DNA from: Pontibacter sp. HSC-36F09
GTDB taxonomy: Bacteria > Bacteroidota > Bacteroidia > Cytophagales > Hymenobacteraceae
Length of the DNA stretch: 64,000 nucleotides
Direction of reading: 5' to 3'
Assembly: GCF_024171605.1 (NCBI RefSeq)
Contig: NZ_JALKAA010000001.1
Span: forward strand, 620,001 to 684,000
The position numbers and the translations under genes are program-made. This document shows, piece after piece, positions 38,301 to 55,470 of this stretch (positions within the stretch are counted from its first letter, which is position 1; each line of letters opens with the position of its first letter). The notes beneath the pieces are model-generated. The model searched no databases. It saw nothing but the letters and a program-made list of their open reading frames with translations, and had not been told where the DNA came from.

Positions 38301-38363
38301 GGTATAGCTATGGATTAGAAGGTATACCTCATTTGCCTGACCCCGCAGGTATAGGCAACAAAA

Positions 38364-38391
38364 AAGGCCCGCTCTTTCGAGGCGGGCCTTG
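38364..38391 (+). terminator. Terminator after the small Gly-rich gene
   Basis: A 9-bp stem AAGGCCCGC/GCGGGCCTT; the T-run is short. The stretch 38392-38672 shows no gene or clear motif. Confidence 0.65.
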
Positions 38392-38672
38392 TGCGTAGTG
38401 TGGGAGACTAAGCCACACCACTATTGATTGTCGCAATTGATCTCACCCATAATGCGCAATCATTTTCTTATAAAGACAGGATTGATGCAGCAAAACTATA
38501 CCTGCAATATTAGCTGTAGATTATTGTAAGGTTACTATATTGTTAAAATCTATCCTGGCTACCATCCGGCTGCCTCCATAACAGCAGCTTTTCCTTACCG
38601 CAACTGACAAAACCAACCCAGCCAATCCAATATTACCTGTATGTCAACAGGTTATAAATAAATATTAGGTTT

Positions 38673-38730
38673 AATTAATAGAAACTTAACCCCTCAGTAA
38701 TATTGAGGTAATATAGCACCTCTACTTTTG
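38673..38730 (+). promoter_or_regulatory. Putative PHO box and promoter of the TonB receptor gene
   Basis: Four heptamers start at exact 11-bp intervals: AATTAAT (38673), ACTTAAC (38684), CAGTAAT (38695) and AGGTAAT (38706), matching nn(T/G)TAA(C/T). Exactly 10 nt after the last one comes the perfect -7 box TACTTTTG (38723-38730), 26 nt before the start codon. This repeats the arrangement upstream of the phosphate porin gene (43004-43061), including the identical last heptamer. Seven-base repeats every 11 bp, ending about 10 bp before the core promoter element, are the known form of PhoB binding sites. Confidence 0.7.
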
Positions 38731-38755
38731 TCGCATTAATCAGACTACAAATACA

Positions 38756-41479
38756 ATGCGACAGAATCTCACCACAGTTCTATTTTTCCTGCTATCCGCT
38801 TTCCTTTCTGTGCATGCGCAGACTGGCAGTATACAGGGAGCCATCAAAGACGCCACGAACGGCGAAGAGTTGATTGGCGCTATCATCAAAGTGCAGGGAA
38901 CGGGGCTGGGCGCTCCTTCGGATGCCTTCGGTAATTTCCGCATCGACAATATAAAAGAAGGTACCTATACCTTAGAAGTCAATAGCCTATCCTACGCGCC
39001 TAAAACGATTGCCGACGTGATCGTGACGGCAGGCAAAACCGCTACGGTTAATGTGGCGATGGAGCAGAACACATCGCAACTGGCGGAGGTGACCATAACA
39101 GCAAAAGGGAACAGGGAAACCGAGCATATTCTGCTATTAGATCAAAAGAAAGCCGTAATAGCGACACAGGCCATCGGCGCACAGGAACTCTCCCGAAAAG
39201 GGGTTAGTGACGCCGAAGGCGCGGTTGCCAAGATCTCAGGCATTTCAAAAAGCGACGGTTTAAAGAATGTATTCGTTCGAGGCCTGGGTGACCGCTACAC
39301 CACCACCACCCTGAACGGCTTTGCCATACCTTCTGAAGACCCTGAGTTTAAGAACATCTCACTCGATTTTTTCACGAGCGATATGATTAAGTCGGTTGAT
39401 GTGAACAAGGTATTCTCGGCATCTATGAATGGCGATGTGGGCGGCGCTCTGATCAATATCAATTCCAAAGAACTTGTTGATGACAAAGCCTTTCAAATCG
39501 GGTTCTCAACCGGTATAAACAGCCAGGTGCCAGGCAGCAACTTCTCGCTTCCAAGTGGCATGAACAAATTTGGTTACGCTACTGCATCTGGCATACCGGC
39601 AAGCCAGAACGGCGAGGAGTATGTAACAAATCACTCTTTTAACAACTCGCTTGACCCGGCACAGAAAAGCCCACTCCTCAATGGTGGCGTTTCCTTTTCG
39701 GGAGGCAGCAGATTCCTGAACAAACACCGCTTTTCTATAATGGGCTCCATGGATAACAAGTACCATTACCAGGAAGGAGTCGCCCGATTGATTACAGCAA
39801 CCAACCCAGAGAACCCTTTCCGCGATTTTGACTACCAGCAATCCATGCGCAGCGCCTCCCACATGCTGGCGGGCAACCTGGAGTTTAACCTCAACAACAG
39901 CCAACTGAATTTCAATTCCCTGTACCTGCACACCGCCACGGCTGCCGCCTACGACTTCTATGGCAAGGAAACAGAAATATTCCAGAAGGCAGAGGATTAT
40001 AATTCCGAAGGCCACCAAAGGCGCTTGCAAGTCAACGATAACTCGGTTTTTATAAACCAGCTCATCTGGAACGGAGACCTCTCGGACAGGATAAAATATA
40101 ATGTAGGTGCTGCGGTAAACCACGTGATCGGCCAGGAACCTGACCGCAGAATCTTCATGCTGCCTTCTATCGGAAACGGCATGGTGGAACTGGGTATGGG
40201 GGAAGGAAGAAACCAACGCTTCAACAGCAAATTAACAGAAACTGCTTTTATCCCTAAAGTTAACCTGCAGTACGCGCTTTCGGCAGACCCGGAAAAACTT
40301 TCTTACGTCGAAGTCGGCTATAACGGCAGGGTAAGCTTCAAAGACTTCTCGGCCCCTACTTACAACCTTATCTGGTCTGGCGGACAAGGCACGCTCCCCA
40401 CTTTCAGATTAGATGACATCCGCCTCGACCCATACTTTAACCAGGAGAGTCTGGCTAACGGCAATTTCCGGATGGAACACTTCAACGATACCTACGATGT
40501 TGAGTGGAATAACCATGGTGCCTATGTTGACATGGTACACAAGGTTGGAAACAAGCTTACTTTAAATGCAGGGGTAAGGGCAGATGATGTTAACATGAAG
40601 ATCAACTATAATGTTAACCGCGGCGCTGACCAAGGATCTAATACGATAGATGAACTCTTCCTATCGCCCAGCTTTAATGCCAAGTACGAGCTCGACGATA
40701 AAAACCATATCAGAACAGGCATCAGCCGCACCTATACCTTGCCGCAGGATAGAGAGGTATCGCCCTTCATTTACCAGGGAATCTTTGGCCCGGAGAATGG
40801 CAACCCGAATCTGGAACCTTCCACCAATTACAACTTCGACTTGAAGTGGGACTTTTATCCATCAGCAGGCGAGCAGATGTCAGTGAATGCTTTTTACAAA
40901 CACATTCTCAACCCAATTGCGCGGGTTGACCAGGGCAACTCAGCAGGCCTGAGAACCTACGACAACGTGTCGGATAACGCAGTGGCAGCCGGTCTTGAGG
41001 TAGAAGTGCGGAAATCGCTGATGAACCTTGCCGAGAAGCATCGTTTGAATGCCGGCCTGAATGCGTCCTACATCCACACGAACGTAAATCTTCCAAGCTT
41101 TTTTACTGAAACCTCCTCTACTCTGGAAGGTGCCGCACCTTACATTCTTAATGCGGACCTGACTTACAATCTGGTAACCGACAAAAATGTAGACGTAACG
41201 TCTGCGCTGGTGCTGAACTACCTGAGCGACAAAGTTCACACCTTAGGTACACGTGGCTTTAACAACCTGATCGAGAAGAGCATCACGACCTTAGACTTTG
41301 TAACCGCAGTGGGCCTTAACGAGCATCTCAAGCTCAATCTGAAAGCCAAAAACCTCTTAAACCCTGCCTATAAGCTCACCAGAGAAGGTGCCGGCTCAGA
41401 TACAAATGCGCAGAGTGTTACGATCGGCAGCTATAAGAGAGGCGTTCAATTCGATTTCGGAGTGACCTACCAGTTTTAA
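38756..41479 (+). CDS. TonB-dependent receptor, probably of the phosphate-starvation regulon
   Basis: A 907-aa outer-membrane protein. Signal peptide (1-22, LSVHA|Q), carboxypeptidase-like beta-sandwich (about 24-105, GSIQGAIKDATNGEELIGAIIKVQG), plug (about 110-245, AVAKISGISKSDGLKNVFVRGLGDRYTTTTLNGFAIPSEDPEFKNISLDFF, SASMNGDVGGALININSKEL) and a barrel ending QFDFGVTYQF. It has no SusD partner; its neighbour is a beta-helix lipoprotein. It moves a ligand across the outer membrane with TonB energy. The four-heptamer PHO-box-like site in front of it, shared with the phosphate porin, suggests that the ligand is phosphate or a phosphorus compound (inference). Confidence 0.93.
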   Translation: MRQNLTTVLFFLLSAFLSVHAQTGSIQGAIKDATNGEELIGAIIKVQGTGLGAPSDAFGNFRIDNIKEGTYTLEVNSLSYAPKTIADVIVTAGKTATVNVAMEQNTSQLAEVTITAKGNRETEHILLLDQKKAVIATQAIGAQELSRKGVSDAEGAVAKISGISKSDGLKNVFVRGLGDRYTTTTLNGFAIPSEDPEFKNISLDFFTSDMIKSVDVNKVFSASMNGDVGGALININSKELVDDKAFQIGFSTGINSQVPGSNFSLPSGMNKFGYATASGIPASQNGEEYVTNHSFNNSLDPAQKSPLLNGGVSFSGGSRFLNKHRFSIMGSMDNKYHYQEGVARLITATNPENPFRDFDYQQSMRSASHMLAGNLEFNLNNSQLNFNSLYLHTATAAAYDFYGKETEIFQKAEDYNSEGHQRRLQVNDNSVFINQLIWNGDLSDRIKYNVGAAVNHVIGQEPDRRIFMLPSIGNGMVELGMGEGRNQRFNSKLTETAFIPKVNLQYALSADPEKLSYVEVGYNGRVSFKDFSAPTYNLIWSGGQGTLPTFRLDDIRLDPYFNQESLANGNFRMEHFNDTYDVEWNNHGAYVDMVHKVGNKLTLNAGVRADDVNMKINYNVNRGADQGSNTIDELFLSPSFNAKYELDDKNHIRTGISRTYTLPQDREVSPFIYQGIFGPENGNPNLEPSTNYNFDLKWDFYPSAGEQMSVNAFYKHILNPIARVDQGNSAGLRTYDNVSDNAVAAGLEVEVRKSLMNLAEKHRLNAGLNASYIHTNVNLPSFFTETSSTLEGAAPYILNADLTYNLVTDKNVDVTSALVLNYLSDKVHTLGTRGFNNLIEKSITTLDFVTAVGLNEHLKLNLKAKNLLNPAYKLTREGAGSDTNAQSVTIGSYKRGVQFDFGVTYQF

Positions 41480-41548
41480 CAATTCAATAACGTTCCGGTC
41501 ACATTCAGTTGATCTACCGATTTTAAATTTGTATAAACAATAAGAAAA

Positions 41549-42682
41549 ATGAAAAAGACATTCCTTTACCTGTTACTGCTTCCGCTGGGTCTGTTCTCAT
41601 GCAAAGACGATGACGACACTACAAACCCGGAACCAGGGCCTGCGGCCACAAAAGAGCTAAGCGGTGATATTTCGACCGATGTAACGCTTGACCCAAGCAC
41701 CGAATACAAACTGACAGGGTCGCTGCTTGTTGTTAATGGAGGAAAACTCAGAATACCTGCGGGTACAGTTATCAAAGCCGATAAGGGCTTTAACAAGTAC
41801 ATTCTTGTAGAGCAAGGCGGCCAGATCTTTGTGAACGGCACAGCCGACAAACCGGTAAAAATAACCTCTGGAGCAGCTGATCCGAAGCAGGGCGATTGGG
41901 GTGGTTTGATCATCAACGGCAAAGCAAGACTTTCCGGCCCGGCCGGCAAGGTTACTACCAGCACCACAGAAGTTAACCCGGCCGTTATTTACGGCGGCGA
42001 CAATAACAACGACAACTCGGGCTCAATCGAATACCTTATCCTGGAGTATACTGGTGCAAAGTCTTCAGCCGATATTGAGCACAACGGCCTGACGCTTAAT
42101 GGCGTGGGAAGCGGCACTAAGATCGAGAACGTTTACATACCTTACGGTGCTGATGACGCGGTTGAGTTCTTTGGCGGTTCAGTAAATGTGAAGAACCTGT
42201 TAGTGGTAGATTCTGACGACGATATGTTTGACGTAACGCAGGGCTGGTCAGGCACACTAGATAACGCCTATGGTGTATGGAAGGCCGGCTATACCAGCAC
42301 AGAATCTGACCCACGTGGCGCTGAGCTGGATGGCAACCTAGATGGCAACACTCCTGGCGACGTGAACCAGTCTGACTTTATCTTCAAGAACATCACAATC
42401 GTGAACGAGTCTACTTTCGAGATGCAGGATGCTGTTAAAGTTCGCAGAGGAGCCAAGGCAACTATTACCAACCTGCTTGTTAAAGGTACCATTGCTACAG
42501 ACCTGATCGACTTGACAGATGGCAAGGGCAACGGAAATGCAGGAACTGTAATCGAATACAAAAACGACGGTATGACAGTTAAGCAGGAAGTTAAAAACCC
42601 TGAAAACGCTGACATCAAAGTTAACAGCGCTATTACAGGTGCCAATACAACAGCATTCGGCTGGACTGGCTACAAGTTCTAA
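41549..42682 (+). CDS. Surface lipoprotein with right-handed beta-helix fold
   Basis: A 377-aa lipoprotein (signal ends LGLFSC, Cys18, followed by the acidic KDDDD). The rest is a right-handed parallel beta-helix of short strands: STEYKLTGSLLVVNGGKLRIPAGTVIKADKG, PVKITSGAADPKQGDWGGLIINGKARLSG, IEYLILEYTGAKSSADIEHNGLTLNGVG, VNVKNLLVVDSDDDMFDVTQGW. The acidic run after the lipid Cys can act as a signal for surface exposure in Bacteroidetes. It lies 69 nt after the TonB receptor gene and probably works with it as the surface binding partner (inference); TAAATTTG at 41524-41531 could be an internal promoter. A strong terminator closes the pair. Confidence 0.82.
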   Translation: MKKTFLYLLLLPLGLFSCKDDDDTTNPEPGPAATKELSGDISTDVTLDPSTEYKLTGSLLVVNGGKLRIPAGTVIKADKGFNKYILVEQGGQIFVNGTADKPVKITSGAADPKQGDWGGLIINGKARLSGPAGKVTTSTTEVNPAVIYGGDNNNDNSGSIEYLILEYTGAKSSADIEHNGLTLNGVGSGTKIENVYIPYGADDAVEFFGGSVNVKNLLVVDSDDDMFDVTQGWSGTLDNAYGVWKAGYTSTESDPRGAELDGNLDGNTPGDVNQSDFIFKNITIVNESTFEMQDAVKVRRGAKATITNLLVKGTIATDLIDLTDGKGNGNAGTVIEYKNDGMTVKQEVKNPENADIKVNSAITGANTTAFGWTGYKF

Positions 42683-42698
42683 GTAAGAGTTAAAATAT

Positions 42699-42740
42699 AA
42701 ATCGGGCTGTCACAGAGTAAATCTGTGGCAGCCCGATTTG
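42699..42740 (+). terminator. Terminator of the receptor-lipoprotein pair
   Basis: An 11-bp stem AAATCGGGCTG/CAGCCCGATTT, extended by CACAG/CTGTG, starts 17 nt after the stop. Confidence 0.88.
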
Positions 42741-42859
42741 TTTGTGGGTTACTGACAGGCGATGTCTTTCGTGCTAAAGCTCGCACTGTGGACTGGGCAG
42801 AATGGAATGCCACCAACCTACAAAATCTCCCATAAGTTTTAATTAAAGGCGTTGCATCA

Positions 42860-42884
42860 AGAGTCAGAGGTCTCCTCTGACTCT
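42860..42884. repeat. Isolated hairpin
   Basis: A perfect 11-bp inverted repeat (AGAGTCAGAGG/CCTCTGACTCT) with the 3-nt loop TCT. It resembles the single stems of the chains at 12.1 and 24.9 kb in size. No gene lies in 42741-43198 apart from this and the PHO-box promoter. Confidence 0.5.
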
Positions 42885-43003
42885 TTGTGTTAACAGGTAG
42901 TTTGGCCAAAGGTATAACAGGCAGAAAATAGTGGCTGATACAATGGAGATGACGGCCCGCTTATATCTATACCTAGAGCTGCCTTCTCTCACCGTATCTT
43001 CAT

Positions 43004-43061
43004 TCTTAACATAACCGTAACATGGCCGTAACCTTCAGGTAATACTGGAGTGGTTATTTTG
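43004..43061 (+). promoter_or_regulatory. Putative PHO box and promoter of the porin-pst-phoU cluster
   Basis: Four heptamers at exact 11-bp steps: TCTTAAC (43004), CCGTAAC (43015), CCGTAAC (43026) and AGGTAAT (43037), each separated by 4 nt. Exactly 10 nt after the last comes TTATTTTG (43054-43061), one base away from TAnnTTTG. The same layout, with the identical last heptamer and spacing, precedes the TonB receptor gene at 38756. The PhoB-type reading is supported by the gene content downstream. Confidence 0.8.
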
Positions 43062-43198
43062 TACCGTGATTCAGAACAAGCAAAACGGCCTGACTAACCA
43101 TTGCAAACTTTGAAACACGCAGGCTAGACTACTGCGACTTAAGTAATAACACTACAGCAAGACATTAGCTTAATTCTCACCCTTAACTAATACAGCGC

Positions 43199-44386
43199 GT
43201 GAACCACAACCTCAAAGGAGTCCTTTTGGTGCTCTTAATCAGTCTCTTCTATACCTCCAGCACACAAGCCCAGACCGTAAACGACACCAGGTTCGGCAAA
43301 GGCCTCCAGTTCGTGGCCGCCGATTCCTCTTTCAGCCTCAGGCTTGGCACCCGCTTTCAGCTGCTTTACCAGGGTGGCAACACGCCCGCCACCGGCAACT
43401 GGGACGACCGCTTCCTGATTCGCCGCGCCCGCCTGAAGTTCGACGGCTTTGCCTTTTCCCCCAGACTGGAATACAAAATTGAGGTCGGCCTGAGTAACAG
43501 CGACATTGGCAGCGACGTGCCTGACCTGACCAACAACGCCGACAACATGATACTCGACGCGGTGGCCAAGTGGCACCTCACCCCTAACCTGCAACTGTGG
43601 GTAGGCCAGACCAAACTGCCGGGTAACCGCGAGCGCGTGGTGTCGTCGCAGAAGATGCAGTTTGTGGACCGCAGTCTGCTCAACTCGCGCTTCAACCTCG
43701 ACCGCGACGCGGGCCTGCAACTGCACCACGAGCACCAGCTAGGTCAGGTTGTATTAAGAGAGATCGGCTCCATTTCGATGGGCGAAGGCCGCGACATTAC
43801 CGTCAACAACACCGGCGGCTACGACTACACAGGTCGTTTTGAGATCCTCCCTTTCGGGGCGTTTGAAGGCGGTGGCGATTACGTGGGCAGCGACATTGAG
43901 CGCGAGCAAACACCCAAACTCGCACTGGCTACTTCGTTCGACTACAACAGCAACGCCGCACGTTCGCAAGGGCAACTCGGCGACTTCCTGAGCGACACGC
44001 GCAGCCTACGCACCTGGTTTGTGGATGCCATGTTCAAGTACCGAGGCTTTTCGGCCATGGGCGAGTACGCCAACCGCAAAGCCACCGATGGGCCTGTGGT
44101 GCTGCGCGACGACCTGGGCGACGTGGCGGAAACTTTCGTGACGGGCAAGGCCCTGAACCTGCAGGCGGGCTACCTGTTGCCGACCAACTGGGAAGTGGCG
44201 GCCCGCTATACCGACTTCAACCCGACAGCCGTGACAGGTATACGCCAACAGGACCAGTATACCCTGGGCATATCAAAATACATAGTGGGGCACTCGCTGA
44301 AGGTGCAGAGTGACGTAACGCTGATACAGGAAGCAAACCGCGAAGACCGTACCCAGTTCAGGTTACAAATGGAATTAGCCTTATAA
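43199..44386 (+). CDS. Phosphate-selective porin (OprO/OprP family)
   Basis: A 395-aa outer-membrane porin starting at GTG 43199. Signal peptide NHNLKGVLLVLLISLFYTSSTQAQ; the mature chain opens with FGKGLQFVAADSSFSLRLGTRFQLLYQGG and continues FLIRRARLKFDGFAFSPRLEYKIEVGLSNSDIG, the standard start of the porin O/P family. A typical C-terminal strand is QFRLQMELAL. Such trimeric porins let phosphate or polyphosphate pass the outer membrane. It is the first gene after a four-heptamer PHO-box-like promoter and is followed by pstSCAB-phoU, which strengthens the assignment. Confidence 0.93.
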   Translation: MNHNLKGVLLVLLISLFYTSSTQAQTVNDTRFGKGLQFVAADSSFSLRLGTRFQLLYQGGNTPATGNWDDRFLIRRARLKFDGFAFSPRLEYKIEVGLSNSDIGSDVPDLTNNADNMILDAVAKWHLTPNLQLWVGQTKLPGNRERVVSSQKMQFVDRSLLNSRFNLDRDAGLQLHHEHQLGQVVLREIGSISMGEGRDITVNNTGGYDYTGRFEILPFGAFEGGGDYVGSDIEREQTPKLALATSFDYNSNAARSQGQLGDFLSDTRSLRTWFVDAMFKYRGFSAMGEYANRKATDGPVVLRDDLGDVAETFVTGKALNLQAGYLLPTNWEVAARYTDFNPTAVTGIRQQDQYTLGISKYIVGHSLKVQSDVTLIQEANREDRTQFRLQMELAL

Positions 44387-44480: not shown

Positions 44481-45458
44481 ATGCTAAACCTTAGCTTTTC
44501 CCGATTCAAACTTAGCGCAGCCATCCTGGTGGGTGCTTCGCTTGCTTTCACATCGTGCGGCGGCAACACCCAGGAAGGCGGCAGCGACATGTCGGGTTCT
44601 ATCTCGATTGACGGCTCTTCTACGGTATACCCTGTGACGGAAGCCGTGGCCGAAGAATACCGCGCCGAGGCTCCGGACGTGAAAGTAACCGTGGGCGTGT
44701 CGGGCACGGGCGGTGGTATGAAGAAATTCTCCCGCGGCGAAATCGACATCGTAAACGCCTCCCGCTCTATCAACGATTCAGAAGCGAAGACGGCAAAAGA
44801 AAACGGTATCTCCTATGTACAGCTTTCGGTAGCTTATGACGGCCTGACTGTGGTCGTGCACCCTTCCAACGACTGGGCAAAAGACATTACTGTGGCTGAG
44901 CTGAAGAAAATGTGGGAGCCTGAAGCGCAGGGCACCATCACGCGCTGGAACCAGATCCGCCCGGAATGGCCTGACAAAGAGATTCACCTGTACGGTGCAG
45001 GCGTGGAGTCTGGCACGTACGATTACTTCACCGAAGCCATTGTAGGCAAGAGCCACTCGAGCCGCGGCGACTATACCGCCAGTGAAGACGACAACGTGCT
45101 GGTGCAGGGCGTGTCGACTGACCCGCTGGCGCTGGGCTTTTTCGGATACGCTTACTATGAAGAAAACAAGAGCAAGCTGAAAGCTATACCTGTAGACAAC
45201 GGCGCAGGCCCTGTACTGCCGTCGCTGGAAACTGTGAAGGACGGTTCTTACGCCCCGCTTTCGCGCGCCCTGTTCTTGTATGTTAGCTCTAAGGCCGTGG
45301 TTAGACCAGAAGTGGTGGACTTCATCAACTTCTACCTCGAAAACGCAGGTGAGCTGGCTCAGGAGGTAGGTTACATTCCCCTGCCTGACAACGTGTACAA
45401 CGAGCAGAAACAGAAGTTCGAGCAATTTGCCACCGGTGCCGCTACGGCCAAACAATAA
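44481..45458 (+). CDS. pstS: Phosphate ABC transporter substrate-binding lipoprotein
   Basis: A 325-aa PstS. The signal ends SLAFTSC (Cys26), so this is a lipoprotein, unlike E. coli PstS. The phosphate-binding loops are visible: SIDGSSTVYPVTEAVAEEY (41-59), VGVSGTGGGMKKFSRGEIDIVNASRSI (about 71-97), and YGAGVESGTYDYFTEAIVGKSHSSRGDYTASEDDNVLVQGV (about 172-212). It delivers phosphate to the PstC-PstA-PstB transporter. It is 94 nt behind the porin gene, with no PHO-box-like heptamers of its own, so it may be read from the porin promoter. Confidence 0.96.
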   Translation: MLNLSFSRFKLSAAILVGASLAFTSCGGNTQEGGSDMSGSISIDGSSTVYPVTEAVAEEYRAEAPDVKVTVGVSGTGGGMKKFSRGEIDIVNASRSINDSEAKTAKENGISYVQLSVAYDGLTVVVHPSNDWAKDITVAELKKMWEPEAQGTITRWNQIRPEWPDKEIHLYGAGVESGTYDYFTEAIVGKSHSSRGDYTASEDDNVLVQGVSTDPLALGFFGYAYYEENKSKLKAIPVDNGAGPVLPSLETVKDGSYAPLSRALFLYVSSKAVVRPEVVDFINFYLENAGELAQEVGYIPLPDNVYNEQKQKFEQFATGAATAKQ

Positions 45459-45530: not shown

Positions 45531-46406
45531 TTGAGAGTACAGGAGAAAATAATAGAAGGCTTGCTGTGGCTGTCGGCCGCCATCACGATACTGGTCACGG
45601 TCAGTATTATTTGGGTCTTACTGTCGGAGTCAATCCAGTTTTTCAGCGAAGTGTCCATTTTGCGCTTCCTGACGGAGAAGGAATGGACGCCCCTCTTTGC
45701 TGACAAGAAGTTTGGTATCATGCCGCTCGTGGCGGGCACCTTCCTGACCACAGCCATTGCCATTGCGGTGGCGTTGCCCATCGGGCTCACCATCGCCATC
45801 TACCTGAACGAGTATGCCCATGCCCGTTTCAAAACCATTATCAAACCTTTGCTGGAAGTGCTGGCCACTATACCTACGGTAGTCTACGGCTTCTTCGCCC
45901 TGACTGTGGTAACGCCTTTCCTGCAATCGTTTATACCTGGTCTGGCGGGCTTCAACGCGCTGTCGGCCGGCATCGTGATGGGTGTCATGATCATCCCAAT
46001 GATTTCCTCGCTGAGTGAAGACGCCATCAGCGCCGTGCCCCGCTCTTTGCGCGAGGCCGCCTACGGCATGGGCTCCACCCGCCTGCAGACCGCTTTCGGG
46101 GTGATGGTGCCCGCCGCTTCGTCAGGTATACTTGTGTCGGTGATTCTGGCTATTTCTAGAGCCGTGGGAGAGACCATGATTGTGGCCATTGCGGCCGGTC
46201 AGCAGCCGCGCCTTACGCTCAACCCGCTGGTGCCGATCGAAACAATTACCACCTACATTGTGCAGGTAAGTATGGGCGATGTGCCGCACGGCTCGCTGGA
46301 GTACCGCACTATTTTCGCGGCAGGCATGACACTGTTCGTATTCACGTTTTTGCTGAACAACCTCAGCTTCTGGATTAAAAAGAAATATCAGGAAAAGTAT
46401 GACTAA
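45531..46406 (+). CDS. pstC: Phosphate ABC transporter permease PstC
   Basis: A 291-aa inner-membrane protein with about six helices. It begins at TTG 45531 (MRVQEKIIEGLLWLSAAITILVTVSIIWVLL); no ATG fits the family start. The ABC permease contact loop is SLREAAYGMGSTRLQTAFGVMVPAASSGILVSVILAISRAVGETM (about 167-211). PLVAGTFLTTAIAIAVALPIGLTIAIYLNEYA is typical of PstC. It forms the channel together with PstA and overlaps the pstA start by 8 nt, so translation is coupled. Confidence 0.95.
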   Translation: MRVQEKIIEGLLWLSAAITILVTVSIIWVLLSESIQFFSEVSILRFLTEKEWTPLFADKKFGIMPLVAGTFLTTAIAIAVALPIGLTIAIYLNEYAHARFKTIIKPLLEVLATIPTVVYGFFALTVVTPFLQSFIPGLAGFNALSAGIVMGVMIIPMISSLSEDAISAVPRSLREAAYGMGSTRLQTAFGVMVPAASSGILVSVILAISRAVGETMIVAIAAGQQPRLTLNPLVPIETITTYIVQVSMGDVPHGSLEYRTIFAAGMTLFVFTFLLNNLSFWIKKKYQEKYD

Positions 46407-47256
46407 CTCCGAGAAAAACCGCCTCAAAGATAAGGCCTTTCAGGTGTTCGGTATTTTTTGTACCTTCATCGGACTGGTGGTACTGGCCATCTTCCTGATC
46501 GATATCGTAATAGAAGGTATAGGTCGCATCGACTGGGATTTTCTGACCAGTCTGCCCTCGCGCCGTGCCGCCCGCGCTGGTATACTTACTGCCTGGGCTG
46601 GTACACTCTGGATTCTGGTATTGTCCGCGCTAATTGCTTTCCCGCTAGGTATAGCCGCCGGCATCTACCTGGAGGAGTACGCCAAGAAGACGAAGCTCTC
46701 GGATTTCCTTGAGATTAACATTGCCAACCTGGCTGGCGTACCGTCTATTATCTATGGTTTGCTGGGTCTGGAACTGTTTGTACGTTTTATGCATTTAGGA
46801 CCGGTTTTGCTGGTAGGTGCGCTCACACTCTCGCTCCTTATCCTGCCCATCGTGATTGTAACAACACGTGAAGCGATCAAGGCCGTGCCCCGCACCATCC
46901 GCGACGGTTCTTTTGCACTGGGTGCCTCTAAATGGCAAACAGTGTGGAACCAGGTACTGCCCGCCTCGTTTGGCGGTATCCTGACGGGCGTGATTCTGGC
47001 GCTCTCACGGGCGGTGGGCGAAGCGGCCCCGCTTATTGTGATCGGAGCGTTGGCTTACGTGCCTTTCGTCCCTAAAACACCGATGGACGAGTTTACGGTG
47101 CTGCCGATCCAGATTTTCAACTGGACCTCGCGTCCGCAGGCGGCCTTCCTGACCAATGCGGCGGCCGCCATTATTGTCCTGTTATTGATTACCTTCTTGC
47201 TGAACGGCATTGCAGTATACCTGCGTCACCGTCAGCAAAAGAAAATAAAATGGTAA
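46399..47256 (+). CDS. pstA: Phosphate ABC transporter permease PstA
   Basis: A 285-aa inner-membrane protein. ABC permease features: [35 protein letters not shown] (about 55-88), [18 protein letters not shown] (about 109-126) and the ATPase contact loop [48 protein letters not shown] (about 166-213). The partner PstC overlaps its 5' end and pstB begins 10 nt downstream, so this is a tight operon. Confidence 0.95.
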
Positions 47257-47266
47257 GTTTTCACCC

Positions 47267-48031
47267 ATGACCAAGAAACACAACAAGTTAGAAGCCACAA
47301 ACCTCGATGCCTTTTACGGCGATTTTCATGCGCTCAAGAACATCAACGTAGCCATGGAAGAAAAGGCTGTCACGGCCTTCATCGGTCCGTCGGGCTGCGG
47401 CAAGTCCACGTTCCTGCGCACCCTTAACCGCATGAACGACTACATCGACGGCTTCCGCATTCAAGGGCAGATTTTGCTGGACGACCGCGATATTTACGCT
47501 AGTAATGTACGGGTAGACGAGCTCCGCAAAGAAGTAGGTATGGTGTTTCAGAAACCGAACCCCTTCCCGAAGACAATTTTCGAGAATGTAGTCTACGGCC
47601 TCAGAATACAAGGTATAAAAGACAAGAAAGTATTGCAGGAGGCCTGCGAGACGTCGCTACGCCAGACTGCACTTTGGGAAGAAGTGAAAGATAAGCTCGA
47701 TAAATCGGCGCTGGCACTTTCAGGTGGGCAGCAGCAGCGCCTCTGCATTGCCCGCGCGCTGGCCATTTCGCCGTCGGTTATTCTGATGGACGAGCCCACA
47801 TCGGCCCTTGACCCGATTTCAACGGCCAAAATCGAGGACTTGATTCATGAGCTGAAGCAGCACTACACCATCATTATTGTGACGCACAACATGCAGCAGG
47901 CAGGCCGCGTAAGTGACCACACTGCCTTCTTCTACATGGGTGAGCTGGTGGAGTATGCCAAAACGAAAACCATGTTTACGAGCCCAAAAAACGAGCGTAC
48001 GCAGAACTACATTACAGGCCGATTTGGTTAA
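47267..48031 (+). CDS. pstB: Phosphate ABC transporter ATPase PstB
   Basis: A 254-aa ABC ATPase that powers phosphate import. Walker [12 protein letters not shown] (about 38-48), Q-loop [16 protein letters not shown] (about 93-108), signature LSGGQQQR (about 147-154), Walker [14 protein letters not shown] (about 167-179), and the switch histidine in [31 protein letters not shown], typical of PstB. All motifs are intact. It follows pstA at 10 nt and precedes phoU at 60 nt. Confidence 0.97.
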
Positions 48032-48091: not shown

Positions 48092-48769
48092 ATGCTACAT
48101 ATTGATGAAGAACTTAACCGGCTGCGGGAAAAGCTGTTGGAAATGTGGGACCTGGTTGACTACCAGCTCACTAGTGGACGCGACGCCGTGATGAATGCCG
48201 ACCATGAACTGGCAGACCAGATTATCAAGCTTGAACGTAAGGTCAATAACTACGACATCAAAATCGACCGGATGTGCGAAAACTTTTTCGCCCTGTATAC
48301 CCCTGTGGCGGTGGACCTGCGCACGGTGCTGGCCATGCTGAAGATAAACACCAATCTGGAGCGCATCGGCGACACTGCCGAGGGGATGGCCCATTTCGTT
48401 AAAAAACTCGACCGTCCCTTCGACCCTGAGCTGGTAGAGCTAACGAACATGATGGTGATGTATGACCAGGCGCTTGCCATGTTCCGCGAATGCCGCGTCG
48501 CGCTCGTAAAAGACGATACAAAGCTTGCCAAGGATGTCATCAAGCTCGACAAGGCTCTCAACAAAATATACCGCAAGTCGGACGTGATTATCACCAAATA
48601 CCTGCAGGCTAATCCTGATCGCATACCTGAAGCACTGGCACTCCTTTCTATTATTAAGAAATTGGAACGCGTAGGCGACCAGGTGACCAACATGGCCGAG
48701 GAAATCATCTTCTACCGCGAAGCGAAAGTGGTGAAGCACAAAAGGAAGAAGAAAAAGAAGGAAGATTAA
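48092..48769 (+). CDS. phoU: Phosphate-transport regulatory protein PhoU
   Basis: A 225-aa helical protein with two three-helix repeats. Each carries a PhoU metal-site motif: LAMLKINTNLERIGDTAEGMAHFV (about 80-103) and LLSIIKKLERVGDQVTNMAEEIIF (about 186-209). It dampens signalling from PhoR and limits uptake through PstSCAB when phosphate is plentiful. The C-terminus is a run of Lys (HKRKKKKKED) not usual in E. coli PhoU. PhoB and PhoR themselves are not in this window. A terminator lies 60 nt downstream. Confidence 0.95.
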   Translation: MLHIDEELNRLREKLLEMWDLVDYQLTSGRDAVMNADHELADQIIKLERKVNNYDIKIDRMCENFFALYTPVAVDLRTVLAMLKINTNLERIGDTAEGMAHFVKKLDRPFDPELVELTNMMVMYDQALAMFRECRVALVKDDTKLAKDVIKLDKALNKIYRKSDVIITKYLQANPDRIPEALALLSIIKKLERVGDQVTNMAEEIIFYREAKVVKHKRKKKKKED

Positions 48770-54255: not shown

Positions 54256-55470
54256 ATGAATGTATTTATCATCCCATCTTGGTACCCCAGTAAAGACAAT
54301 CCACACACAGGAATCTTTAACAAGGAGCAGTCTGTTGCTATGGCTGAATTTAACCCTGATTCTAATTTTGCTATCAGTACATGGGGTACGCATGAAAATG
54401 ATTTACTAATACTAGGGGAGGACAATTTTAAGAACATTCTAAAATTTTTGAAATACCCATCGAAGAAGGCTACTGCACGGAAGCTGGGGGGAAATATTAC
54501 AGAATATTATACTCCTGCTTTTACTTGGACCAGAAAATTTTTGCAAGGCAATATGGAGAACATCATTAAGTCGAATGAGAAACATCTCATGGCTTTTCAA
54601 AATGAGGTGGGGAAAGCTGATATCATACATGCGCATAGCGCACACCCTGGAGGCTGGGTAGCGATGTTGTTAGCAAAAAAGCACGCTATACCTTATGTTA
54701 TTACAGAGCATATGGCGCCATTTCCATTTCGATCTTTTTTAGGCAAAGGCAATACTTTAGACAAATACCTTGCACGACCCTTTCAGTGTGCAGCTGCTAA
54801 TGTAGTGGTGAGCCCCCAGCAGAAGCAAAATCTAATGAAGTGGGGCATTCCAAACCTAAGATATATCCCAAACCTGACAGATGAGAGTTTCTTCTATCCC
54901 AAACCCAAAGGAAGTAGTAACTTTGTATTCCTCACTTTAGCGGTGCTTGAAGATAGAAAAGGGATTATTTACCTATTGAAAGCATTCAAAAGTATTTTAA
55001 CAGGATATCCAAGTGCTCGTTTGGTAATAGGAGGTGATGGGCCCCAGCGGGAGATTTACCAAGCACTTGCTTCAGATTTAGAAATTGCAGCAAATGTACA
55101 ATGGCTGGGTACATTAAGCCGACAACAGGCTGCAAATGAAATGCAAAACTGTGACGCTTTTGTGCTTCCCAGTTTCCATGAAAACCTACCACTTGTCTTA
55201 CTAGAAGCTTCCGCTTGCGGTAAGCCGCTAATTGGCACTTATTGCGGTGGCTCTGAGAGTATTATTAACGAGAAAAATGGATTAGTAGTAGAGCCGGGTA
55301 ATGTAGATGCGTTATATGGCGCTATGGAAGATATGTATTTAAATCACCAGCGATATAATGCTGAAGAAATAAGAGCCGATTTTATAAGCAAATATTCAAG
55401 GCCTGTAGTCTGTAAACAAATCATGGACTTATACAAACAAGTCATCGCCCAACACAAGTACACCCTATGA
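54256..55470 (+). CDS. Glycosyltransferase family 4 protein
   Basis: A 404-aa GT-B-fold transferase. N-terminal part NVFIIPSWYPSKDNPHTGIFNKEQ and IIHAHSAHPGGWVAMLLAKKHAIPYVITEH (about 117-147); C-terminal GT4 domain with AVLEDRKGIIYLLKAFKSI (about 230-248), ARLVIGGDGPQREIYQAL and the E-x7-E motif in LPSFHENLPLVLLEASACGKPLIGTYCGGSESII (about 304-337). It adds a sugar from a nucleotide donor to an acceptor for polysaccharide or glycolipid. It is clearly more AT-rich than its neighbours, with few AGGTATA motifs (one seen), which points to transfer. It overlaps the DUF2520 gene by 4 nt (ATGA). Confidence 0.92.
   Translation: MNVFIIPSWYPSKDNPHTGIFNKEQSVAMAEFNPDSNFAISTWGTHENDLLILGEDNFKNILKFLKYPSKKATARKLGGNITEYYTPAFTWTRKFLQGNMENIIKSNEKHLMAFQNEVGKADIIHAHSAHPGGWVAMLLAKKHAIPYVITEHMAPFPFRSFLGKGNTLDKYLARPFQCAAANVVVSPQQKQNLMKWGIPNLRYIPNLTDESFFYPKPKGSSNFVFLTLAVLEDRKGIIYLLKAFKSILTGYPSARLVIGGDGPQREIYQALASDLEIAANVQWLGTLSRQQAANEMQNCDAFVLPSFHENLPLVLLEASACGKPLIGTYCGGSESIINEKNGLVVEPGNVDALYGAMEDMYLNHQRYNAEEIRADFISKYSRPVVCKQIMDLYKQVIAQHKYTL

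Follow-up and report, generated by a model that had tools for sequence, protein, structure and literature searches.

Introduction

In E. coli, PHO boxes consist of direct repeats of the 7-mer CTGTCAT with a spacing of 11 bp, and about 10 bp separate them from the core promoter. The core promoter of Bacteroidetes is of the TAnnTTTG type. The closest systems described in this phylum are cited here from parts of the respective articles. DAP-seq of Riemerella anatipestifer PhoP yielded 583 peaks and the motif TTTAACA, likened to ArcA, and the EMSA set includes the promoter of a TonB receptor (PMC9603813). This motif, from the same phylum, is near the upstream heptamers of the locus studied here, but the cited parts of that article describe neither a four-fold 11-bp array nor a promoter phasing. 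In Flavobacterium johnsoniae, a receptor and a lipoprotein in a phoBR context are induced in low phosphate (fold change 8.02 and 9.91 in Table 1 of that study, log2 according to its text), and OprP (Fjoh_0542) shows no response (-1.3, not significant) (PMC8115612). The low-phosphate regulon reported there comprises this receptor and lipoprotein, PlcP, a glycosyltransferase, a MauG-like partner and the phoBR context, kinds of genes that match the boxed ones found below; in the main text of the study, the words "Pho box" and "motif" occur 0 times, and the cited parts describe no comparable RNA (PMC8115612). F. psychrophilum Rfp18 is a structured Bacteroidetes sRNA, one loop of which is predicted to serve several functionally related mRNAs, those of metalloproteases (PMC9723704). 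The RNA described here differs from Rfp18, as presented in the cited parts, by its PHO-box promoters, its pair of seed loops and its predicted targets, which are phosphate-related. Among the articles listed by a literature search, with most subscription journals outside it, none was seen on a Bacteroidetes PHO box of the form described below or on a phosphate sRNA in the phylum.

We analysed a stretch of 64,000 nucleotides from Pontibacter sp. HSC-36F09, called the window hereafter. Its arrays resemble the E. coli PHO box bound by PhoB in having 7-mer repeats with 11-bp spacing and a gap of about 10 bp, ahead of pst genes. They differ from it by the repeat, nnKTAAY instead of CTGTCAT, and by the core promoter, which is the TAnnTTTG of Bacteroidetes.

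Phased arrays at the porin-pst locus

The first-pass annotation had described two arrays of four heptamers, one before a TonB receptor gene and one before a porin gene, as identical sites with an exact 11-bp period, placed 10 nt before a -7 box. Every heptamer was found at the bases assigned to it, and period, gap and both -7 boxes (Table 1) are as claimed. The word identical does not hold, since only the last heptamer, AGGTAAT, and the architecture are common to both arrays. The proposed consensus nn(T/G)TAA(C/T) is roughly right as nnKTAAY, upstream heptamers often carrying TAAC. We also observed that the porin gene is the first of a porin-pstS-pstC-pstA-pstB-phoU operon, which had not been mentioned.

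The window was searched with the pattern KTAAY(N6KTAAY)x3-N14-TTTG, allowing at most 2 mismatches. Three matches were obtained: both reported sites fit exactly (0 mismatches), and the third, at positions 38491-38546 of the minus strand, has 2. In 100 dinucleotide shuffles of the window, there were 0 matches. The phased minus-strand box to which the third match corresponds (38548-38509) was absent from the first-pass annotation. When TTTG was omitted, the four-heptamer pattern had 3 exact matches in the whole 4.43-Mb genome, the two reported arrays and C4:149226; the latter precedes a SulP gene. With up to 3 mismatches, the plain consensus scan was mostly noise (60 matches versus 39 for the reversed pattern), and a box model was therefore built instead.

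Phasing was measured at 26 pst loci, from 24 genus relatives, one genome of another family and the window. For boxes scoring at least 17 of 20, an offset of exactly 14 nt from box to TTTG, which leaves 10 nt before the -7 box, was counted 66 times. No other offset was seen more than 3 times, except +3 (15) and +25 (10), which correspond to one repeat either side. Two features of PHO boxes are found here, namely tandem 7-mers with an 11-bp period and a constant phase of about 10 nt to the core promoter. The E. coli-like repeat CTGTCAT is replaced by nnKTAAY, hence the term PHO-type box, a variant. Judged by their sequence, the arrays of the window are PHO-type boxes.

Table 1. Features of the locus (positions in the window; R1, box model)
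Feature	Position	Strand	Evidence
Terminator of small RNA (intrinsic), T run on minus strand	38360..38391	-	sequence, structure
Small RNA (start estimated from -7 box; end in terminator T run)	38362..38486	-	z -3.86, covariation
RNA hairpin 2; conserved loop TTAGTCTCCC at 38411-38402	38395..38421	-	structure, conservation
RNA hairpin 1; conserved loop GGGTGAGA at 38448-38441	38425..38462	-	structure, conservation
-7 box TAGTTTTG, small-RNA promoter	38491..38498	-	phasing
Third PHO-type box, divergent: TTTTAAC/TAGTAAC/CAATAAT/AGCTAAT, 11-bp period	38509..38548	-	R1 37.0 bits
PHO-type box, TonB-receptor promoter: AATTAAT/ACTTAAC/CAGTAAT/AGGTAAT, 11-bp period	38673..38712	+	R1 46.5 bits
-7 box TACTTTTG, receptor promoter, 10 nt past last heptamer	38723..38730	+	sequence, phasing
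AGACTA, receptor 5'UTR, complementary to RNA loop 2	38742..38747	+	complementarity
TonB-dependent receptor, 907 aa	38756..41479	+	PF13715, PF07715, PF00593
ATCTCACC, receptor codons 4-6, complementary to RNA loop 1	38766..38773	+	complementarity
Weaker phased box over receptor stop codon; TAAATTTG at 41524-41531	41474..41513	+	17 of 20
Lipoprotein-like protein, 377 aa	41549..42682	+	no Pfam/NCBIfam match
PHO-type box, porin-pst promoter: TCTTAAC/CCGTAAC/CCGTAAC/AGGTAAT	43004..43043	+	R1 50.9 bits
-7 box TTATTTTG, porin-pst promoter	43054..43061	+	sequence
CTGACTAA = element E2, porin 5'UTR, complementary to RNA loop 2	43090..43097	+	complementarity
TCTCACCC = element E1, before porin start, complementary to RNA loop 1	43175..43182	+	complementarity
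Porin, Porin_O_P, 395 aa, GTG start	43199..44386	+	PF07396
pstS	44481..45458	+	TIGR02136
pstC	45531..46406	+	TIGR02138
pstA	46399..47256	+	TIGR00974
pstB	47267..48031	+	TIGR00972
phoU	48092..48769	+	TIGR02135

Genome scans with the box model

The sequence-only model, R1, was made from 53 boxes of relatives with the window's genome held out; divergent boxes were not part of the training alignment, and the orthologs of the third box are outside the training set. The scan of the held-out genome, in which 150 of 1214 candidates were fully scored, lists 12 matches. The porin-pst, receptor and divergent boxes rank first, second and third among them, with the next match at 18.9 bits. The strong matches of this genome are three promoters of a single locus. 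No phosphatase was found among the genes read beside most of these 12 matches.

In 25 genomes of the genus, R1 gave 113 matches at E <= 0.01. Of these, 69 are no more than 12 kb from pstS, where chance would place about 0.6; this group includes many training sites. The 44 matches elsewhere are independent of training. Six of the 7 best of these 44 (5 when the receptor paralog is left out) precede phosphorus-acquisition genes: the receptor paralog, a GDPD, an S1/P1 nuclease and three PlcP-like genes. The remaining one precedes a gene for MarC, for which we know of no phosphate role; MarC genes lie downstream of 9 of the 36 outside matches read. In three Flavobacterium genomes (F. defluvii, F. 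johnsoniae CI04 and F. sp. SLB02; F. johnsoniae UW101 is not among the 80 loci listed), 6 of 9 matches at E <= 0.05 precede phosphate-related genes, which encode a PiT transporter, a TonB receptor divergent from phoB-phoR, a phosphate porin (Porin_O_P) and a lipoprotein. The 377-aa lipoprotein-like protein of the window is 41% identical, over 345 aligned columns, to the boxed lipoprotein of Flavobacterium sp. SLB02. OprP of F. johnsoniae is reported as unresponsive in the cited part of that study (PMC8115612), yet the porin beside phoBR in a relative carries a box. The array is enriched before phosphate genes, and the outcome that the first-pass annotation had named as speaking against its proposal, an array no more frequent there than elsewhere, did not occur.

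Two other candidates were set aside. SulP promoters are not taken as PHO boxes, their arrays being of the TTTTAAT type and, in the window's genome, located beside a CusR-like pair. A 491-493-aa protein beside MauG could not be established as PhoX and is without Pfam family.

A conserved small RNA behind the third box

Downstream of the third box lies not a protein gene but an RNA gene of about 125 nt, with three hairpins and a terminator. The RNA is present in all 50 genomes of the genus (51 copies), 8 of which supplied the model, and in 24/24 genomes of two sister genera. Covariation in its structure is strong: over 50 copies, 96.3% of the cells are paired and two-sided changes occur at 18 of 27 pairs, compared with at most 52.9% of cells and 11 pairs in slid controls. 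Two conserved loops, GGUGAG (loop 1) and CUUAGUC (loop 2), are unpaired in the consensus. No Rfam 15 family reaches its gathering threshold in the window, the best partial hit having 21.9 bits of 50. The gene of the window is a discrete one with its own promoter and terminator, and the structure is conserved in the absence of a conserved ORF. A peptide product was considered and rejected, since 11 of 50 copies lack ATGGGTGAG, the candidate micro-ORF start, and the frame is anywhere between 4 and 36 codons long.

Complementarity of the two loops to leaders

Every 6-mer of the RNA (122-column alignment) was compared with the porin leader of its own genome. This seed scan peaks only at loop 1 (20 of 24 leaders) and loop 2 (15 of 24), shuffles reaching at most 7 and control regions 7 and 4. 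In second porin leaders, loop 1 is matched in 9/9 and loop 2 in 5/9; window-type receptor leaders match loop 1 in 6/7 and loop 2 in 5/7, and receptor-paralog leaders match loop 2 in 12/15 (shuffles at most 4 in each case). Among the operon 5' ends shown for sister genera, 10 of 11 contain GAGACTAA. The motif CTCACC within 40 nt before the start is found in only 1 of 59 other ORFs of the window and 1 of 243 non-PlcP ORFs elsewhere. E1 is present in three of four PlcP leaders, a count within the reach of shuffles (up to 4), and PlcP mRNAs probably belong to the loop-complementary messages. The complementarity of the unpaired loops to the leaders of predicted targets is conserved.

Exceptions were also recorded. 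E1 is changed or absent in 4 of 24 porins, E2 is absent from the L083, L085 and L087 receptors, and the G097 porin has GACTAC in place of GACTAA. The start codons of the L072, L073 and L076 porins were misplaced in the leader scan, the E1 of each being nonetheless present. The genomes are related and the counts are thus not independent; as the receptor E1 lies inside codons, protein constraint may contribute to its conservation.

The matches are short (6-13 nt), many of them singly no better than shuffles, and the duplex energies in the window are modest, from -6.3 to -15.5 kcal/mol, with 2-29 of 1000 shuffles equally low. This leaves some room for coincidence, E1 and E2 being then conserved for another reason such as contact with the ribosome or a protein, the more so as the second porin and the pst porin, being Porin_O_P proteins alike, might have a leader of common ancestry. 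However, only the two apical loops peak along the whole RNA alignment, and the same elements occur in receptors, which are unrelated to porins, E1 being also present in the PlcP leaders mentioned above. We regard coincidence as quite improbable.

The position of the elements bears on the outcome of pairing. E1 sits about 20-24 nt upstream of the start codon or a few codons downstream of it, and pairing near a start codon usually hinders initiation. The main alternative, which we think unlikely, is that the RNA pairs but activates, by opening an inhibitory structure or protecting the 5' end, in a coherent feed-forward, or that, where it is a 3'UTR, the mRNA that carries it offers its own 5' end for pairing. 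The RNA and its predicted targets have boxes alike, which would suit activation, and receptor-paralog mRNAs start with CGAGACUAA, which fits loop 2 of their own 3'-end RNA in the genus and sister-genus proportions given above. Against activation stand the location of E1 and the folding of the window's porin leader, which is no better than that of shuffles (z 0.59), so that no inhibitory structure to be opened is evident.

The RNA as an operon 3' end and as a free gene

The RNA has its own box with a phased promoter in 16 of the 51 copies of the genus. Among the 35 copies without, 34 begin 3-52 nt past the stop codon of a lipoprotein or receptor gene, and outside the genus a stop codon immediately precedes the RNA in 25 of 26 copies read. 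In all 25 genomes covered by both scans, a same-strand box lies upstream of the RNA, directly in 10 and about 4.2-4.5 kb away in 15. All 12 operons read in sister genera have a box 4.3-4.6 kb upstream, with receptor and lipoprotein in between. A PHO-box receptor-lipoprotein operon ends in this RNA, its 3' end, in other members of the genus and in the sister genera.

This location behind stop codons would also be expected if the PHO boxes were real and the RNA had no function in trans, serving as a structured 3' end that stabilises and terminates the receptor-lipoprotein mRNA, and persisting in the window's clade as a box-plus-terminator relic after loss of the protein genes. A relic should decay, yet compensatory change has preserved the stems, the two apical loops are conserved as well, and the phased promoter is retained in all 16 stand-alone copies. 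Neither loop is needed for termination, yet both match conserved leader elements. An RNA without function in trans appears improbable to us.

A candidate PhoB-type regulator

Four OmpR-type regulators are encoded in the window's genome, and PhoB is the best family for only one, a 252-aa protein (C1:495228) that adjoins a PhoR/PnpS-like kinase. Its scores are below the NCBIfam cut-offs of TIGR02154 (226.8 of 296.2 bits) and NF053854 (207 of 270 bits), and it is therefore called PhoB-like; the kinase is likewise below cut-offs (PnpS 266 of 400, PhoR 245 of 334 bits). The candidate is 54% identical to the regulator beside the boxed receptor of F. defluvii. The closest PDB relatives of its DNA-binding domain are PhoB chains, the best match over its full length being MtrA rather than PhoB. 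No box was found at its own promoter among the R1 matches listed. We infer PhoB as the binder of the boxes, and the regulator at C1:495228 is most likely the predicted PhoB-type binder.

With four such regulators in the genome, the arrays could instead be bound by another one (RprY-, CusR- or RppA-like), the phosphate genes being part of its set. The SulP gene beside the CusR-like pair likewise follows an 11-bp array with a 10-nt gap, so the architecture alone is not PhoB-specific. The repeats of that array are, however, of TTTTAAT type, and the single regulator with PhoB as best family has its F. defluvii relative adjoining a boxed receptor. Binding by another OmpR-type regulator is very improbable in our estimation.

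Proposed mechanism

Phosphate-uptake genes are probably switched on through the repeated boxes, and since the same type of box precedes an RNA whose loops match the starts of uptake mRNAs, a second control at the RNA level may exist. We consider it quite likely that PhoB-type activation is combined with a base-pairing RNA under the same control. The PhoB-type response regulator would bind the four nnKTAAY heptamers on one helix face and, during phosphate scarcity, recruit RNA polymerase to the TAnnTTTG core promoter 10 nt downstream, leading to low-phosphate induction of the boxed promoters. The small RNA would be made in low phosphate through the third box, and its loops GGUGAG and CUUAGUC would pair in trans with the starts of PHO-box mRNAs, those of porin-pst, second porin and receptor. 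Such pairing would most likely damp the translation of co-induced messages, forming an incoherent feed-forward.

On the sequence comparisons made here, we lean towards a new RNA family of one Bacteroidetes family acting as a post-transcriptional arm of the Pho regulon. It may have begun as the 3' end of a receptor-lipoprotein operon and been freed as a PHO-box gene when a clade lost the coding part, its two kissing loops pairing bipartitely with the co-switched porin-pst, receptor and lipid-remodelling leaders. If true, a 3'UTR would here have turned into a free gene inside a single genus, a clear example of sRNA gene birth. A candidate RNA regulator with a defined promoter and structure, two short seeds and named targets makes RNA control of phosphate uptake testable. 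Published low-phosphate responses, in the parts cited here, come without such a site; an explicit and searchable Bacteroidetes PHO box makes phosphate regulons readable from genomes.

A weaker box over the receptor stop codon

A weaker phased box (41474-41513) was likewise not part of the first-pass annotation. It has no entry among the R1 matches listed for the genome, and L331 has a box at the equivalent place, between receptor and lipoprotein.

Phased boxes precede the receptor, the porin-pst operon and a third, divergent promoter

The first-pass annotation had described two PHO-type arrays of four heptamers, one before a TonB receptor gene and one before a porin gene, and the sequence bears this out exactly: eight heptamers with an 11-bp period, each array ending 10 nt short of its -7 box. 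A search with the array plus TTTG pattern, allowing up to two mismatches, gave three matches in the window and none in 100 shuffles. The third is a divergent box beyond those two arrays, and a -7 box, TAGTTTTG, lies exactly 10 nt past it. A weaker phased array overlaps the stop codon of the receptor gene. The operon order is porin-pstS-pstC-pstA-pstB-phoU, with the porin first.

Features of the window and of its genome (window coordinates, except contig C4)
Feature	Position	Strand	R1 score (bits)
Receptor box	38673-38712	+	46.5
TonB-dependent receptor gene	38756-41479	+	
Porin-pst box	43004-43043	+	50.9
Divergent box	38548-38509	-	37.0
RNA	38362-38486 (start estimated)	-	
Glycosyltransferase gene	54256-55470		
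SulP array	C4:149226-149263	+	

The pst regions of 24 other genus members and of one genome from another family were compared, and four-heptamer boxes scoring at least 17/20 were found without using promoter position. Counting these regions and the window, TTTG lies exactly 14 nt from the box in 66 cases, other offsets accounting for at most 3 cases each, except one repeat unit either side (15 and 10). The recurrent box sites are the porin, the receptor or a receptor paralog, and a second Porin_O_P gene, which only some members have. At six loci (L072, L074, L083, L085, L086, L087) 6-7 heptamers phased at 11 bp form a second, distal array upstream of the receptor-paralog box, on the minus strand in oriented coordinates.

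Genome scans with the box model

The sequence-only box model R1 was trained on 53 boxes of relatives, leaving out the window's genome and all divergent boxes. In the genome scan that the first-pass annotation had proposed, the best matches of this held-out genome were the porin-pst, receptor and divergent boxes, in that order, and the fourth, at 18.9 bits, lay before a MarC gene. Over 25 genus genomes, the window's included, R1 gave 113 matches at E <= 0.01; 69 lie within 12 kb of pstS, spread over all 25 genomes, many of them being training sites. The other 44 are outside training, and the genes beside 36 were read: MarC (9), SusC-like receptors (5), PlcP-like phosphoesterases with a glycosyltransferase next downstream (4), 491-493-aa proteins with a MauG-like protein next downstream (3), SulP (3), and a receptor paralog, a GDPD and an S1/P1 nuclease (one each), the last 9 being unassigned, small genes, or an extra box ahead of one of the PlcP genes. 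Pfam runs covered the GDPD, the nuclease, the receptor paralog, four PlcP and three MarC proteins, and one each of the glycosyltransferase, MauG-like and SusC-like proteins; the other boxed genes were named from sequence likeness. When these non-pst matches are ranked by score, phosphorus-acquisition genes, receptor paralog included, make up six of the top seven.

The MarC boxes, found in nine genus genomes (L095, L150, L152, L156, L167, L168, L169, L176, L178), are phased and PHO-like with a weak second repeat; we know of no phosphate role of MarC. The boxed 491-493-aa protein (L160, L170, L177) has no Pfam family, and the gene behind it is MauG-like where tested (L160). Since PhoX of F. johnsoniae is also accompanied by a MauG-like protein, the boxed protein may be an unrecognised phosphatase.

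The divergent box precedes a structured RNA

No protein gene follows the divergent box; instead there is a stretch of about 125 nt with three hairpins (fold z -3.86), the third being a terminator whose T run lies on the minus strand. A covariance model built from 8 genomes found this RNA in 50/50 genus genomes (51 copies), and a second model found it in 24/24 genomes of two sister genera and, more weakly, in 2/2 of a third, two further genera giving E ~0.01 or worse at best. Among 291 genomes sampled across the order, the RNA turned up only in the window organism's family, under stricter filters that also missed known carriers. Computed on 50 copies of the 51, pairing holds in 96.3% of the cells of the three stems, with 18/27 pairs changed on both sides, as against at most 52.9% pairing and 11 two-sided pairs in a slid-partner control. 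The apical loops read GGTGAG (loop 1, invariant) and CTTAGTC (loop 2, nearly invariant) in the genus, and sister-genus copies keep them in 24/24 and 23/24 cases, respectively. No Rfam family matched the RNA, and no conserved reading frame was found across its copies. The RNA family appears new, base-pairing sRNAs themselves being of a known kind.

The RNA occurs in two contexts. Sixteen of the 51 genus copies, the window's among them, have their own box at equal spacing, and 34 of the remaining 35 start 3-52 nt past a lipoprotein or receptor stop codon; no such frame was found ahead of the copy in genome G041. Comparison of positions in the 25 genomes covered by both scans placed a same-strand box upstream of the RNA in every one, directly adjoining in 10 and about 4.2-4.5 kb away in 15. 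In the sister genera, all 12 operons read have an R1 box (29.7-47.1 bits) ~4.3-4.6 kb upstream of the RNA, with receptor and lipoprotein genes in between, and in genome G018 the whole receptor-lipoprotein operon is duplicated with the RNA in both copies. The simplest history would be a loss, in the clade of the window's organism, of the protein genes that separated box and RNA.

The RNA loops are complementary to leaders of boxed genes

In each of 24 genomes, every 6-mer of the RNA was checked for complementarity to the 150 nt ahead of that genome's own porin start. The scan peaks at two places only, loop 1 (20/24 genomes) and loop 2 (15/24), while shuffled leaders reach at most 7 and two control regions 7 and 4. 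The loop-1 complement CTCACC precedes the porin in 20/24, the exceptions being CTTACC, CTCACA, CTCACT and one without. The second porin leader carries the loop-1 complement in 9/9 and the loop-2 complement in 5/9; window-type receptors have the former within their first codons at 6/7 promoters and the latter in 5/7 leaders, and 12/15 receptor-paralog mRNAs start with the loop-2 complement (shuffles exceed 4 in no set). Of four PlcP leaders, three contain the loop-1 complement, a count also within reach of shuffles of four leaders. In the sister genera, the operon mRNAs start with GAGACTAA in 10 of the 11 inspected, and the four porins nearest the window's have the loop-1 element in 4/4 and GACTAA in 3/4. 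All these counts cover related genomes, the independent units being gene families.

CTCACC within 40 nt before a start is found at 2/60 window ORFs, the porin being one, and at 4/247 ORFs of other loci, PlcP being three. The duplexes predicted in the window reach -15.5 and -10.3 kcal/mol for the porin (equalled by 2 and 29 of 1000 shuffled targets) and -13.6 and -6.3 kcal/mol for the receptor (15 and 25 of 1000). A glycosyltransferase gene in the window has TCTCACCT immediately before its ATG and could be a further target of the RNA, or the match could be due to chance.

Boxed genes in Flavobacterium and published low-phosphate data

Relatives of F. johnsoniae were found via a PDB SprA chain, which we take to be the F. 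johnsoniae protein, with the aim of reaching a group with published data. R1 gave 9 matches at E <= 0.05 in three Flavobacterium genomes. All three have a DUF47-PiT phosphate-transporter operon with a phased box (L327, L329, L330; Pfam run on one); F. defluvii has a boxed receptor in divergent orientation to phoB-phoR and, 2.2 kb away, a boxed Porin_O_P gene; and F. sp. SLB02 has a boxed lipoprotein gene immediately 3' of a receptor gene. Three of the 9 matches have no assignment. For the genes of these three genomes, orthology to F. johnsoniae loci was taken from context and similarity. On phosphate depletion of F. johnsoniae, the phoBR-context receptor is listed as induced with a change of 8.02 and the lipoprotein with 9.91 (fold change, log2 by the text; PMC8115612, Table 1), other FI-FIII-kind lipoproteins with 14.47 and 11.56, PlcP with 8.59 and phoB with 3.06 (PMC8115612). 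The same source gives OprP as not induced (-1.3, not significant; PMC8115612), which does not fit the simple reading.

A candidate regulator and a proposed circuit

The window's genome has four OmpR-type regulators. For one, adjoining a PnpS/PhoR-like kinase, the best family is PhoB, with a score below cut-off; the remaining three are RprY-, CusR- and RppA-like. The PhoB-like regulator shares 54% identity with the regulator that adjoins the boxed receptor of F. defluvii, and PhoB chains are the nearest PDB structures to its DNA-binding domain, MtrA having the top score over the whole length. Among the R1 matches listed for the window's genome, none lies at this regulator's own promoter. We infer that this regulator binds the boxes. 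The box represents a familiar type of site in variant form. A PhoP motif of R. anatipestifer, TTTAACA, is already published (PMC9603813), and PhoB of B. fragilis is known, the passage on it giving no binding site (PMC3547664). Our literature search turned up no record of arrays built like this, nor of any phosphate sRNA from the phylum.

In the mechanism that we propose, PhoB-P would activate porin-pst, receptor-lipoprotein and RNA at once under low phosphate, and the RNA would contact the leaders of these co-activated messages via its two loops. Because the loop-1 sites lie ~20-24 nt ahead of start codons or shortly past them, the RNA would more likely lower than raise translation, this being the weakest step.

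TTTTAAT-type 11-bp arrays also stand 10 nt before a -7 box ahead of SulP at four loci (L092, L159, L164, L179). L092 is in the window's own genome, where the array lies directly behind a CusR-like regulator-kinase pair and SulP is followed by a carbonic anhydrase. The array with its 10-nt layout may be general to OmpR-type activators of the phylum, the heptamer distinguishing them.
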